From Pirellulales bacterium (GTDB taxonomy: Bacteria > Planctomycetota > Planctomycetia > Pirellulales > Thermoguttaceae): a stretch of 38,295 bases of DNA. The stretch covers positions 1 to 38,295 of the forward strand of contig JAFGRD010000080.1 of assembly GCA_016935315.1 (NCBI GenBank). Reading direction: 5' to 3'. Below, in pieces: positions 96 to 3,436 of the stretch. Every line of letters begins with the position of its first letter. Within the stretch, counting starts at the first letter, position 1. The position numbers and the translations under genes are program-made. The notes beneath the pieces are model-generated. The model ran no database searches, was not told where the DNA came from, and worked only from the letters and a program-made list of their open reading frames with translations.

Positions 96-120
96 GCTTC
101 AGCCATATGGCGGCTGAGGC
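96..120. repeat. Intergenic hairpin
   Basis: GCTTCAGCC (96-104) pairs with GGCTGAGGC (112-120), nine pairs with one G.T, around a 7-nt loop. It lies just after the inferred intron end and about 100 nt beyond the stop of the minus-strand gene 226-1512. Read on the minus strand it is followed by only three Ts, so it is a poor terminator. It shares the TTCAGC/GCTGAA motif with the next two elements. Confidence 0.6.
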
Positions 121-126
121 CACTTG

Positions 127-152
127 TAGCTGAATTCGCGAGCATTCAGCTA
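127..152. repeat. Perfect 9-bp intergenic hairpin
   Basis: TAGCTGAAT (127-135) and ATTCAGCTA (144-152) are perfect reverse complements around an 8-nt loop that itself contains the palindrome TCGCGA. There is no T tract on either side, so it is not a standard intrinsic terminator. It abuts the structured repeat at 153-212 and may be part of the same element, although the other copy (3374-3436) has no matching hairpin upstream. Confidence 0.65.
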
Positions 153-212
153 TCGCAGGAATTCAGATTGGCGCAGTGCTGAATGGCCCCCAATCCGAAG
201 TCTTGCGACTTC
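153..212 (+). repeat. Structured intergenic repeat, copy A
   Basis: The order is box 1 TCGCAGGAATT (153-163), 2 nt, stem GATTGG (166-171), 18-nt loop, stem CCAATC (190-195), 1 nt, then box 2 (197-212), itself a hairpin of GAAGTC, TTGC loop and GACTTC. Copy B at 3374-3436 has the same order and linker lengths, and one stem pair changes compensatorily between copies (T168-A193 here, C3389-G3416 there). The element ends 13 nt short of the stop of the minus-strand gene 226-1512, so relative to that gene it is inverted, while copy B is in the same sense as its neighbour. Position beside a stop codon in both orientations fits an interspersed REP-like element better than a terminator. Confidence 0.65.
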
Positions 213-225
213 AGCTGCCACGACG

Positions 226-1512
226 CTATCTCGCCCGGATACAGTAGACGTTTTCCAGGCCCACCAGGAACATACTCCCGCGGGCGACGGCGGGTGAGGG
301 ATGGTTGCCGTCGCCCAGATCGTTTTCCGCCAGCACCTTGAACTCCGGGCCGGATTGAATGACGAAGCTCTTGCCGGCGTTGGCGTAGTAGATCCGCCCG
401 TTGCCGTCCACAACGGCGCTGGCCCAAGTGGTCGAAATGCCGGCGAGTCGTTTGGCGTAGACCTGCCGCCCGTCGGTCAGCCGCCAGCATTTCAGGACTC
501 CCGGCATATGGAGCCGGTAGACGTAGTCGCCCACGATCACCGGCGAGCCGATCCCTTCCGGCACCTGATCGATTTTCCAGCGGAGATGCGTCTCGGAGAC
601 GTCCCCGCGGCCCGTGGGATCGACGGCCACGCCCGGCCCGCCGCGGCCGCTGTCGCAGTAGACGAGACGGCCGTCACAAACCGCCGAGGTCGTGTCGCCC
701 GCGCCCCAGCACCACCAGATCGGCTCACCGCAGTCCGGGTCGAGGCTCTGCACGGCGCGGGAGGAAGCGCTGCCGCCGGACGCCGCGATAATCAGTTGTG
801 TCCTGCCGCGGACCGGCACCAGAACCGGCGTGCTGTGGCCGAAGCCGGTCTCCGGCAGCGCTTGCTGCCATCGCACGCCGCCCGTGGCCTTGTCGAACGC
901 GATCAGCTTCGAGTCGCTGGGCTTGGCCATGGCGCAGAGCAACAGGAGCGTATCACGATACAGGATCGGGCTGCTGCCCAGCGTCACGTCGAACGTGTAG
1001 GGTACGATCTCTTGGCGCCAGGCGATCTTCCCCTGGAAGTCCAGTGCGGCGATCACCGACGAGCCGAACGCGCAGTAGACGAGACGGCCGTCGGTCGTCG
1101 GCGTCGGGCAGGCATAGCCGCCGCCCGGCCCGCTGCGGAAGTCGGTCCGCAACCACGGCCCCGAGGGCACTTGGCGATCCCACAACAGTCTGCCGTCGCC
1201 GGCCGCATAGCAGAGCACGTGGTGCTCCGGAATGACTTCCTCGCGGCGTGCCACCGACTCGGGCCACCGGGCCGTGCAAACGAAAACGCGGTCGCCCCAG
1301 ACGATCGGACTTGCGTGCCCTTGTCCCACCAGCGGGGTCTTCCAGGCAACGTTCCTGGCGCCGTCGCCGCCCCACTCGATCGGCAGGTTCTTCTCATCGG
1401 TGCGGCCCATGCCCGTGGGCCCGCGGAACTGGGGCCAGTCGGCCGCCCCTCCAAGGAACATGATCGCCACCGCGACAACGACCGCATCGATTCGTCGACC
1501 TGATTGTTTCAT
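226..1512 (-). CDS. Secreted PQQ-like beta-propeller repeat protein
   Basis: A 428-residue protein with an N-terminal signal sequence (basic MKQSGRR followed by a hydrophobic run to about residue 24) and the WPQFRGP motif at about residues 26-32 that opens very many planctomycete PQQ-like propeller proteins. Repeated blade motifs follow, such as LIAFDKATGGVRW, VYCDSGRGG, IYYANAGKS and the terminal VYCIRA, spaced about 40-50 residues apart, giving a BamB/quinoprotein-like seven- or eight-bladed fold. No haem-binding CxxCH is seen, so it is probably not a true quinoprotein dehydrogenase but a scaffold or binding protein in the periplasm. The only clear ATG near the signal sequence is the chosen start. 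A TATAAT box lies at 1579-1584 on the same strand. It is divergent from the gene at 1700. Family assignment is firm, function unknown. Confidence 0.9.
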   Translation of the reverse strand: MKQSGRRIDAVVVAVAIMFLGGAADWPQFRGPTGMGRTDEKNLPIEWGGDGARNVAWKTPLVGQGHASPIVWGDRVFVCTARWPESVARREEVIPEHHVLCYAAGDGRLLWDRQVPSGPWLRTDFRSGPGGGYACPTPTTDGRLVYCAFGSSVIAALDFQGKIAWRQEIVPYTFDVTLGSSPILYRDTLLLLCAMAKPSDSKLIAFDKATGGVRWQQALPETGFGHSTPVLVPVRGRTQLIIAASGGSASSRAVQSLDPDCGEPIWWCWGAGDTTSAVCDGRLVYCDSGRGGPGVAVDPTGRGDVSETHLRWKIDQVPEGIGSPVIVGDYVYRLHMPGVLKCWRLTDGRQVYAKRLAGISTTWASAVVDGNGRIYYANAGKSFVIQSGPEFKVLAENDLGDGNHPSPAVARGSMFLVGLENVYCIRAR

Positions 1513-1699: not shown

Positions 1700-3367
1700 A
1701 TGAAAACGCCGATCGTGTGGGTGCTCGTTGTCGCCTGTGCATTTTCGTCCGCTTGGATCGCCACCAAGGCCCACGCCCGCCAGGTGCCCCTGCTCGAGGT
1801 CAGCCAGGGCCAGTTGCCCAACGACACAGCCAGCGACGGGCTGACGAAGCTGGTGATCGTGGAGTATCCCGCACTGGGCGGCCGGGCGCTGAAGGTCGTC
1901 TATTACGCGGGCGACAGCTTTGGCGACCGGCAGGCCCGCGTGTCCAACTGGAAGGAGTTCATCACGCTTGAATTCGACGCCTTCAATCCGGCCGAGGAAG
2001 ACGTCCGCGTGACGTTCACCGTCACGCACCGGCGGACCACGAGTTACCAGACCCGGGTCGATGTGCCGATTACCCTGAAGCCCGGCAAGAACTCCGTGCG
2101 GACCGGCATCGACGAGATGGTCAACGTCAACGGCTCGACGCCGGACCTGGGCAACGTGCGTCGCTGGTACTTTGCCTGCGAGTTGGGCAAGACGCCGACG
2201 CTGTACTTCGGAGACGTTTTCCTGATAGGCGACGATGCTCCCGGGCCCACCTCGTCAACCGGAGGACCCGCCGCCGGTCCGCCCGCCGCCTACAAAATCA
2301 CGGGCCAGATCGGCGGCATGCCCGTGGAGCTGACGGCGACCCCCGTGGGCGGCGCGGCGGCGGTGGGCATAACGTCGCCGGGCGGCCCAGCCCCAGCGCC
2401 GATTCAAACCGACCCGGCTCGCCTGGCCCGCATCCGTGCCGCCAAAATGCCCGAAATCACCCGGCCCGTGATGTTCGATACGCCGGAGGCCGACGCCATC
2501 TGCTCGGCGCTGGAGGTTTTTCCGCCGGACAACCCGTGGAACCATGTCGTCGAGAACTGGCCGCTGCATCCGAACTCGGACGCCATCATCACGTCGATCG
2601 GCCGACAGAAGCCTTTTCGCTACAACCCCGACATGGGCTACATCCTCGTGCCGCCCGACCAGAAGCGCGTTGAAGTCAAGCTGGGCGATTACCCGGCCGA
2701 GTCGGATCCCGGGCCTTACCCCGTGCCCGACAATGTCCCCATCGAAGGCTGGCCCGTGCAGTATCAGCGCAGCTCGGAAACCCCGCCGACCCTCTCGGAG
2801 GTGCAGCGGCGCCCCGCCCAGTACGAAGGAGACCGCCATGCCATCGTCCTGGACCCGGTCGAGAGGAAGCTGTACGAGTTTTTCATCATGGGCAGGACGG
2901 ACGCCGGCTGGGTGGCGGCCCAGGCGTCGGTTTTCGACTTGAAGACCAACGCGTTGCGGCCGTCGGGCTGGACCTCGGCCGATGCCGCCGGGCTGCCCAT
3001 CTTCCCGGCGGTGGTTCGCTACGACGAGCTGAAGCGGGGGATCGTGGAACACGCCATGCGCGTGACCGTCACCAAGACCCGCCGCGAGTTCGTCGCCCCG
3101 GCCACGCACTATGCCAGCTCGCACGACAACCCCGAATATCCGCGGATGGGCGAGCGGCTGCGTCTGAAGGCCGAGTTCGACGTCTCGCCCTACTCGCCGG
3201 AAGTCCAGGCCATCCTCAAGGGTCTGAAGAAGTACGGCATGTTCGTCGCCGACAACGGCATCGACTGGGCGATCTCCGTGGCGCCCGACCCGCGGATCCC
3301 CGAGCTGCACGCCGAGCTTCGTCGCATCCAAGGTGCCGCCTTCGAGGTCGTCGTGCCGCCGCCGTAG
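1700..3367 (+). CDS. Secreted protein of unknown function, two-domain
   Basis: A 555-residue protein with a clear signal peptide (MKTPIVWVLVVACAFSSAW, cleavage probably after AHA at about residue 27). Residues 30-175 look like a beta-sandwich of carbohydrate-binding type (alternating strands, ending in YFGDVFLIGDD); a Pro/Gly/Ala-rich linker covers about 180-250; residues 250-555 form a second domain with the blocks FPPDNPWNH, YNPDMGYILVPP, HAIVLDPVERKLYEFF and KKYGMFVADNG. The C-terminal blocks recall uncharacterised secreted bacterial proteins that I cannot tie to a reaction. GGAGG at 1687-1691, 8 nt before the ATG, supports the start. The gene is monocistronic by layout: its own promoter precedes it and a structured repeat starts 6 nt after its stop. 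Confidence 0.85.
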   Translation: MKTPIVWVLVVACAFSSAWIATKAHARQVPLLEVSQGQLPNDTASDGLTKLVIVEYPALGGRALKVVYYAGDSFGDRQARVSNWKEFITLEFDAFNPAEEDVRVTFTVTHRRTTSYQTRVDVPITLKPGKNSVRTGIDEMVNVNGSTPDLGNVRRWYFACELGKTPTLYFGDVFLIGDDAPGPTSSTGGPAAGPPAAYKITGQIGGMPVELTATPVGGAAAVGITSPGGPAPAPIQTDPARLARIRAAKMPEITRPVMFDTPEADAICSALEVFPPDNPWNHVVENWPLHPNSDAIITSIGRQKPFRYNPDMGYILVPPDQKRVEVKLGDYPAESDPGPYPVPDNVPIEGWPVQYQRSSETPPTLSEVQRRPAQYEGDRHAIVLDPVERKLYEFFIMGRTDAGWVAAQASVFDLKTNALRPSGWTSADAAGLPIFPAVVRYDELKRGIVEHAMRVTVTKTRREFVAPATHYASSHDNPEYPRMGERLRLKAEFDVSPYSPEVQAILKGLKKYGMFVADNGIDWAISVAPDPRIPELHAELRRIQGAAFEVVVPPP

Positions 3368-3373
3368 CGGAAT

Positions 3374-3436
3374 TCGCAGGAATTTCGACTGTCGCGCCGC
3401 CCCAAAGGGGCACAAGTCTGAAGCCTTGCGAACTTC
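3374..3436 (+). repeat. Structured intergenic repeat, copy B
   Basis: Same architecture as 153-212: box 1 TCGCAGGAATT (3374-3384), 2 nt, stem GACT (3387-3390), a 24-nt loop, stem AGTC (3415-3418), 1 nt, box 2 GAAGCCTTGCGAACTTC (3420-3436). Inside the loop sits a second hairpin, GCCCC (3399-3403) and GGGGC (3407-3411) around AAA. Compared with copy A the loop sequence is different but the outer stem is kept, with a T-A to C-G change at the third pair. It begins 6 nt after the stop of the gene ending at 3367. The rest of 3437-3495 shows nothing further. Confidence 0.65.

Follow-up and report, generated by a model that had tools for sequence, protein, structure and literature searches.

A GTAG-type REP family in head-to-head doublets, most likely orphaned, in the genome of a Pirellulales-like planctomycete

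The two hairpins in the window (contig C122:1-38295, the whole stretch of 38,295 nt that was analyzed) are copies of a scattered DNA repeat of the REP kind. The window belongs to the draft genome of a Pirellulales-like planctomycete (G000), which comprises 7.10 Mb in 172 contigs with a completeness of 95.28%. Our analysis established the copy number of the repeat, its architecture, its maintained hairpin, and its extragenic placement. We consider it probable that the repeat is a GTAG-type REP family in head-to-head (REPIN-like) doublets, which spread as a non-autonomous single-strand DNA element and is most likely orphaned and decaying. An earlier note on this DNA had proposed a REP-like family in this genome, and the proposal is borne out by a GTAG tag, a short palindrome, about 100 copies, a mostly extragenic placement, and head-to-head pairs.

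The REP unit consists of a GTAG foot, an 8-bp stem, and a GCAA loop. One variant, which we named G-type, reads on the other strand as GTAG, CTGAAGTC, GCAA, GACTTCAG, and A; the other, named T-type, carries a G-C to T-A exchange (CTGAATTC...GAATTCAG) and forms the left-hand half of the doublet. The GTAG foot was nearly invariant in an alignment of 32 units (A1), from which we built a covariance model (R1). Scanning the whole window with R1 at E<=0.1 yielded matches at 126-150, 194-218, and 3364-3388 and nothing beyond these; the degenerate right REP of copy 2 gave no match at that threshold. The features are as follows, of which the outer arm, the apparent duplication, and the right REP of copy 2 were read from the sequence.

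97-109, plus strand: outer arm of copy 1, CTTCAGCCATATG, a flank present beside part of the G000 copies
126-218, plus strand: copy 1, a head-to-head doublet with a T-type REP on the left and a G-type REP on the right; R1 matches at both ends
126-150, plus strand: left (T-type) REP of copy 1, GTAG foot and hairpin; R1 33.6 bits
151-166, plus strand: apparent partial duplication of the loop and 3' arm of the left REP of copy 1
194-218, minus strand: right (G-type) REP of copy 1, its GTAG foot reading GCAG; R1 36.8 bits
226-1512, minus strand: gene adjoining copy 1, PQQ-type beta-propeller (BamB-like); PF13360, E 2e-21
1700-3367, plus strand: gene adjoining copy 2, an ORF of 555 aa
3364-3440, plus strand: copy 2, a head-to-head doublet with a degenerate right half
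3364-3388, plus strand: left REP of copy 2; R1 28.8 bits
3415-3439, minus strand: right REP of copy 2, degenerate, GTAG foot lost

The 11-nt box TCGCAGGAATT that the two copies had been reported to share was found at 153-163 and 3374-3384, and the second hairpin box, GAAG...CTTC, at 197-212 and 3420-3436. The linkers, described as identical in length, measure 33 nt and 35 nt, and the unit begins further left than had been seen, with the left REP of copy 1 at 126-150; the box at 153-163 sits inside the 151-166 segment. An extra copy of the loop and 3' arm is also apparent in the T-type REPs of three other loci (L028, L030, and L035), and these hairpins, like that at 126-166 in the window, seem to have been lengthened as if by tandem slip.

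The 11-nt box spans the variable loop and is a poor search handle. It matches the 7.10-Mb genome exactly at 12 places, and its reversed pattern at 0; by reading, 6 of the 12 matches lie inside the repeat (the two window copies and L003, L004, L008, and L009) and the other 6 look like chance. A two-box search in the spirit of the one proposed earlier (CGCAGGAATT, 30-60 nt, TCTGAAG) recovered only 2 places in the genome. When up to 3 mismatches were allowed, the right-hand half, TCTGAAGTCTTGCGACTTCNGCTAC, was found at 76 places and its reversed control nowhere, which supplies the further copies in the genome on which the earlier note had made its proposal depend. The wider pattern GTAGC-N6-CGCAAG-N6-G matched 45 places compared with 4 for its reversed control, and all 45 were judged by eye to be variants of one stem, CTGAAKTC with a GCAA loop. 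R1 gave 141 matches in G000 at E<=1 and 107 at E<=0.01 with stricter filters. That 6 of the 12 exact box matches appear fortuitous would be expected if the resemblance between the two window copies were itself due to chance; however, that reading is refuted by the approximate and wider-pattern counts and their controls, and the R1 matches, the stem covariation, and the cross-genome pair test described below also speak against it, so that its probability is negligible.

To describe the arrangement of the copies, we used 116 of 133 R1 matches, omitting one duplicate (L038 2972, identical to L008), one match in L282 (1236, 31.1 bits), and 15 matches of 24.6 bits or less, several of which are partners of singles. 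The 116 matches form 93 elements, namely 70 singles and 23 dimers, the latter being undercounted because weak partners fell below the cut. Every dimer (23/23) is head to head with the GTAG feet pointing outwards, and in 15 dimers the two REPs are 25-28 nt apart. With typing and stem counts confined to matches of length 25, 19 of the 21 typed dimers pair a T-type with a G-type REP and 2 are T/T. The same orientation prevails in other genomes, where 76 of 82 close pairs among the matches listed, from at least 100 stretches, were head to head. The Y and Z REPs of the Escherichia coli BIME also make up an element of two REP types in opposite orientation; this design is common to the family described here, and the stems and loops of the BIME are different.

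An arm like CTTCAGCCAAATG lies outside 36 of 76 G-type REPs (0.3% in the control) and, at a greater distance, outside 7 of 38 T-type REPs; thus, part of the G000 copies are longer than a plain doublet. Such arms would be the terminal inverted repeats if the element were a MITE of a DDE transposon with the REP hairpins internal to it. Against this origin, the outer arm is absent from more than half of the copies and, by reading, was not seen in copies from other genera (L045-L049), and we regard it as very improbable.

Whether the hairpin is maintained as a fold was judged by covariation against column shuffles and slid partners. In G000 (133 matches, 121 distinct rows), 90.3% of the REP stem cells were paired; shuffling the columns lowered this share to 84.5%, and sliding the partners brought it to 48.9% or less. 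Two-sided changes numbered 48 against 20.3 (sd 3.6) expected, a value reached by 0 of 500 shuffles; the alignment had been fitted to the structure, and much of this signal is the inherited G/T split. A cleaner test used the pattern GTAGCNGAANTCGCAAGANTTCNG, in which four free letters are not forced to pair, on a collection of species genomes. Among the matches listed from other genomes, 108 of 120 had both free pairs complementary, compared with about 7.5 by chance, matches from one genome not being independent. The first free pair was TA in 48, GC in 39, CG in 22, AT in 2, and another combination in 9 of the matches listed; the second was TA in 57, CG in 39, GC in 20, AT in 1, and another combination in 3. 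Both compensatory changes and G-U pairs are present in the REP stem.

These results uphold the earlier claim of a maintained fold for the 8-bp stem inside each REP, but not for the stem in the linker to which the claim had been attached. The reported T-A to C-G change is real in the two window copies (GATT/AATC versus GACT/AGTC), but there is no excess pairing over 22 dimers: 39 of 88 linker cells were paired against 37.6 when shuffled (P 0.39) and, when the window copies were removed, 32 of 80 against 32.6 (P 0.62). Nor did the left and right REPs of 21 dimers pair with each other (241/336) better than each REP paired with itself (275/336). When folded as DNA, a single perfect G-type REP reached a z score of -5.2 and the dimer of L029 reached -4.5; copy 1 of the window gave -2.8, with -2.5 for its left REP as a hairpin, and copy 2 folded poorly (-1.09). 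In G000, the stem is perfect in 22 of the 76 G-type REPs and in 4 of the 38 T-type REPs.

The placement of the elements relative to genes was determined using a home-made, codon-usage-based gene caller. The elements are strongly extragenic: 65 of the 93 are intergenic, 18 overlap a gene end, and 10 lie inside a gene, compared with 640, 192, and 3796, respectively, of 4628 random positions. By gap type, 44 elements lie in tandem, 16 in convergent, and 17 in divergent gaps, with 45.3, 14.8, and 16.9 expected by gap length from a baseline of only 29 gaps. Such a distribution is more in line with spread into unoccupied intergenic DNA than with a function at 3' ends.

Both copies touch stop codons, as had been observed earlier, copy 1 by ending 7 nt beyond the TAG stop of the ORF at 226-1512 (minus strand) and copy 2 by containing, at 3365-3367 within its own GTAG, the stop of the ORF at 1700-3367, which had no Pfam match at E<=0.001. 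Ten predicted gene ends, including that at copy 2, fall inside elements, and in each case the stop is a TAG or TGA of the element itself. When GTAGCTGA is entered from the foot, TAG or TGA is met in two of three frames; the stop codons beside both copies are thus accounted for by the sequence of the element. An alternative is that the hairpins are selected as RNA, either as 3'-end elements (terminators or mRNA stabilizers) or as cis-regulatory RNAs of the neighboring genes. The compensatory changes and G-U pairs of the REP stem would agree with this, as would the closeness of many elements to stop codons and the good folding of both window copies as RNA (z -2.8 to -3.5 on one strand or the other). 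However, no terminator-like site, with a GC-rich stem and then a run of T, was detected at either copy in a terminator scan, in keeping with the earlier judgment that this is not a terminator, and the gap types revealed no gene-orientation bias on their small baseline; an Rfam scan returned no family at gathering score. Selection as RNA is therefore improbable.

Matches to R1 at E<=0.01 were found in 10 of 60 genomes, including G000, with counts of 123 in G015, 107 in G000, 58 in G005, 36 in G055, 26 in G044, 18 in G036, 15 in G022, 3 in G034, and 1 each in G001 and G040; the other 50 genomes had no match at this threshold. A laxer scan gave 137 matches in G015 and 41 in G055. The titles listed for the GTAGCNGAANTCGCAAGANTTCNG matches include Planctomycetaceae, Pirellulaceae, Gemmataceae, Verrucomicrobia, Poribacteria, KSB1, and a few other metagenome-assembled genomes, whose binning we do not vouch for, and the REP family is spread over many lineages. 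Many R1 matches share one score in G005 and G015, and the scores in G000 are scattered; together with the small number of perfect stems, this scatter suggests that the family is decaying in G000.

The earlier note had recommended a search for a REP-associated transposase, and ours identified none linked to the stem family of the window. A PF01797 search of G000 revealed one HUH-Y1 gene (C97:248-448), whose motifs (NHVH; YVIEGQ) are close to, but not exactly, the class 3 signature of Quentin et al. and whose scores fall below the NCBIfam cut-offs for both IS200 and REP-associated transposases. This gene, at a contig end (L041), lies in a long frame whose translation contains recurring short motifs (such as GSGTECGSGTE), giving the impression that another palindromic repeat is read through. 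A profile of 13 planctomycete IS200-like proteins (A3) matched one 36-residue fragment in G000 (C14:19883-19990, E 7e-5; L387 1498-1605, minus strand), which resembles the N-terminus of an IS200-like Y1 transposase; no more of the enzyme was detected in that stretch, and no REP was found in the 3.1 kb around it. Judging from its sequence, the fragment is probably a relic of a Y1 enzyme. The gene beside it reads, by eye, like a MoxR-type ATPase. We found no intact matching GTAG-associated enzyme gene in the G000 draft, and in G015, which has the most copies of the window's REP, the only A3 match was a weak one.

The search was extended to Y1 loci of related genomes, sampled as the best 30 from each of three scans plus 60 hand-chosen regions; one of the scans comprised 18 loci in 17 genomes, with G076 giving the same Y1 places as G044. 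Across 118 Y1 sources from G000 and related genomes, which overlap in part and omit most of L052-L081 (covered by pattern instead), R1 at E<=1 placed a REP at only two places, L083 (the same as L227) and L321. These were rejected as transposase-adjacent REPs, lying 1284 nt and 773 nt, respectively, from the Y1 domain; with 137 REPs in the 9.1 Mb of G015, about 0.8 would be expected by chance over approximately 53 kb of its Y1 loci. The Y1 gene of L321 (1260-2100) has different repeats at its sides, CAGCCCAGGGC... and GCCCTTTCAGGGC..., possibly its own REP type. A pattern match near a Y1 gene in L239 was discounted, having neither GTAG nor the loop. A home-made Y1 profile found no Y1 ORF in the GTAGCNGAANTCGCAAGANTTCNG stretches listed, which number at least 100.

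Hairpins of similar design do occur beside other planctomycete Y1 genes. Of 125 distinct Y1 domains, 53 were assigned to a WxxGY group by a crude motif rule, and a perfect hairpin of GT[AG]G, 8 bp, and a 4-nt loop was present within 600 nt of 9 of these 53, compared with 2 of 61 class 2/3 domains. The tags GTAG and GTGG together accounted for 21 such hairpins versus 3 for eight control tags combined. Nine IS200-like Y1 loci are flanked in this way (L061, L062, L064, L080, L081, L098, L329, L330, and L357), and in L062, L080, and L081 identical hairpins stand on both sides in inverted orientation. Eight of the nine flanked genes carry Y...Q..HH and one (L080) carries Y...Q..QH; those of L061, L080, and L081 score above the NCBIfam IS200 cut-off and score below, or do not match, the REP-transposase model. 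These hairpins share the geometry of the window's REP, but their stems differ, and we take them as a lead and not as a link. It is possible, though on balance doubtful, that the GTAG REPs of Planctomycetota are served by IS200-like TnpA (class 1, Y...Q..HH) and not by the class 2 RAYTs of Proteobacteria, in which case the window's repeat would be an orphan two-type doublet and the C14 relic a remnant of its enzyme. Under this reading, the ability to recognize GTAG would either have originated in both Y1 classes or have been transferred between them.

The family can be set beside several known systems. Both the PVC group and R. baltica were reported by Di Nocera et al. (2013; PMC3733652) to carry GTAG repeats. 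The window's family resembles the GTAG REP superfamily described in that paper in its GTAG foot, short stem-loop, many copies, mostly extragenic placement, and favored head-to-head dimers; its CTGAAKTC stem with GCAA loop counts as a difference, and it may be one of the families of Di Nocera et al. GTAG REPs are characterized by a small-looped stem of 6-9 bp adjoining the foot, here 8 bp and GCAA, and by a linked RAYT gene, whereas the window's REP stands beside none of the sampled Y1 genes. According to the same paper, a RAYT flanked by the same REP is found in most but not all hosts, and loss of the REPtron is allowed for (PMC3733652).

REPINs likewise consist of inverted REP doublets, with a spacer that lets the doublet fold into one long hairpin, and REPs exist mainly as doublets where the ratio of singles to doublets is below 2, according to Bertels and Rainey (2011; PMC3116915). 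In G000, the ratio is 70:23 at the cut used, higher than that limit but with doublets undercounted. Unlike those REPINs, the G000 doublets have differing halves, singles predominate, and no RAYT is linked. Quentin et al. (2018; PMC6006769) give CnGA as the class 3 foot and five tnpA-REP subclasses flanked by REPs; the single Y1 gene of G000 resembles TnpA-Y1 class 3 by motif. The same authors describe subclass 1.2 (Y...Q..HH) as occurring mostly in Cyanobacteria and Bacteroidetes and as generally without typical terminal IS200 structures (PMC6006769). Many planctomycete Y1 genes carry the signature of this subclass; in contrast to that description, GTAGC hairpins flank some of the Y...Q..HH genes, with stems unlike that of the window.

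For the GTAG-type REP family proposed here, an HUH-Y1 transposase would, by analogy, recognize the foot and hairpin on exposed single strands, cut at the GTAG foot, and move or copy the doublet into intergenic DNA. The enzyme has most likely been lost or lies in the unassembled part of the genome. With no intact GTAG-associated enzyme and mostly mismatched hairpins, the family is thus most likely an orphaned, decaying population. Weighing against this explanation are the distance of the nearest Y1 genes (approximately 0.8 and 1.3 kb, none having the window's REP at its side), the single weak IS200-like match in G015, the excess of singles over doublets, and the poor DNA fold of copy 2.

A literature search for REP together with Rhodopirellula found no paper combining both terms, and our data add a well-sampled REP family from a phylum whose REPs, as far as we have searched, have been described in little detail; they also show cleanly, across genera, whether the fold is maintained. 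The GTAGC hairpins beside IS200-like Y1 genes make an evolutionary link between IS200 transposases and REPs testable, and a genome rich in REPs, in whose draft no intact matching enzyme was found, informs the question of whether a resident transposase is required for REPs to be retained.
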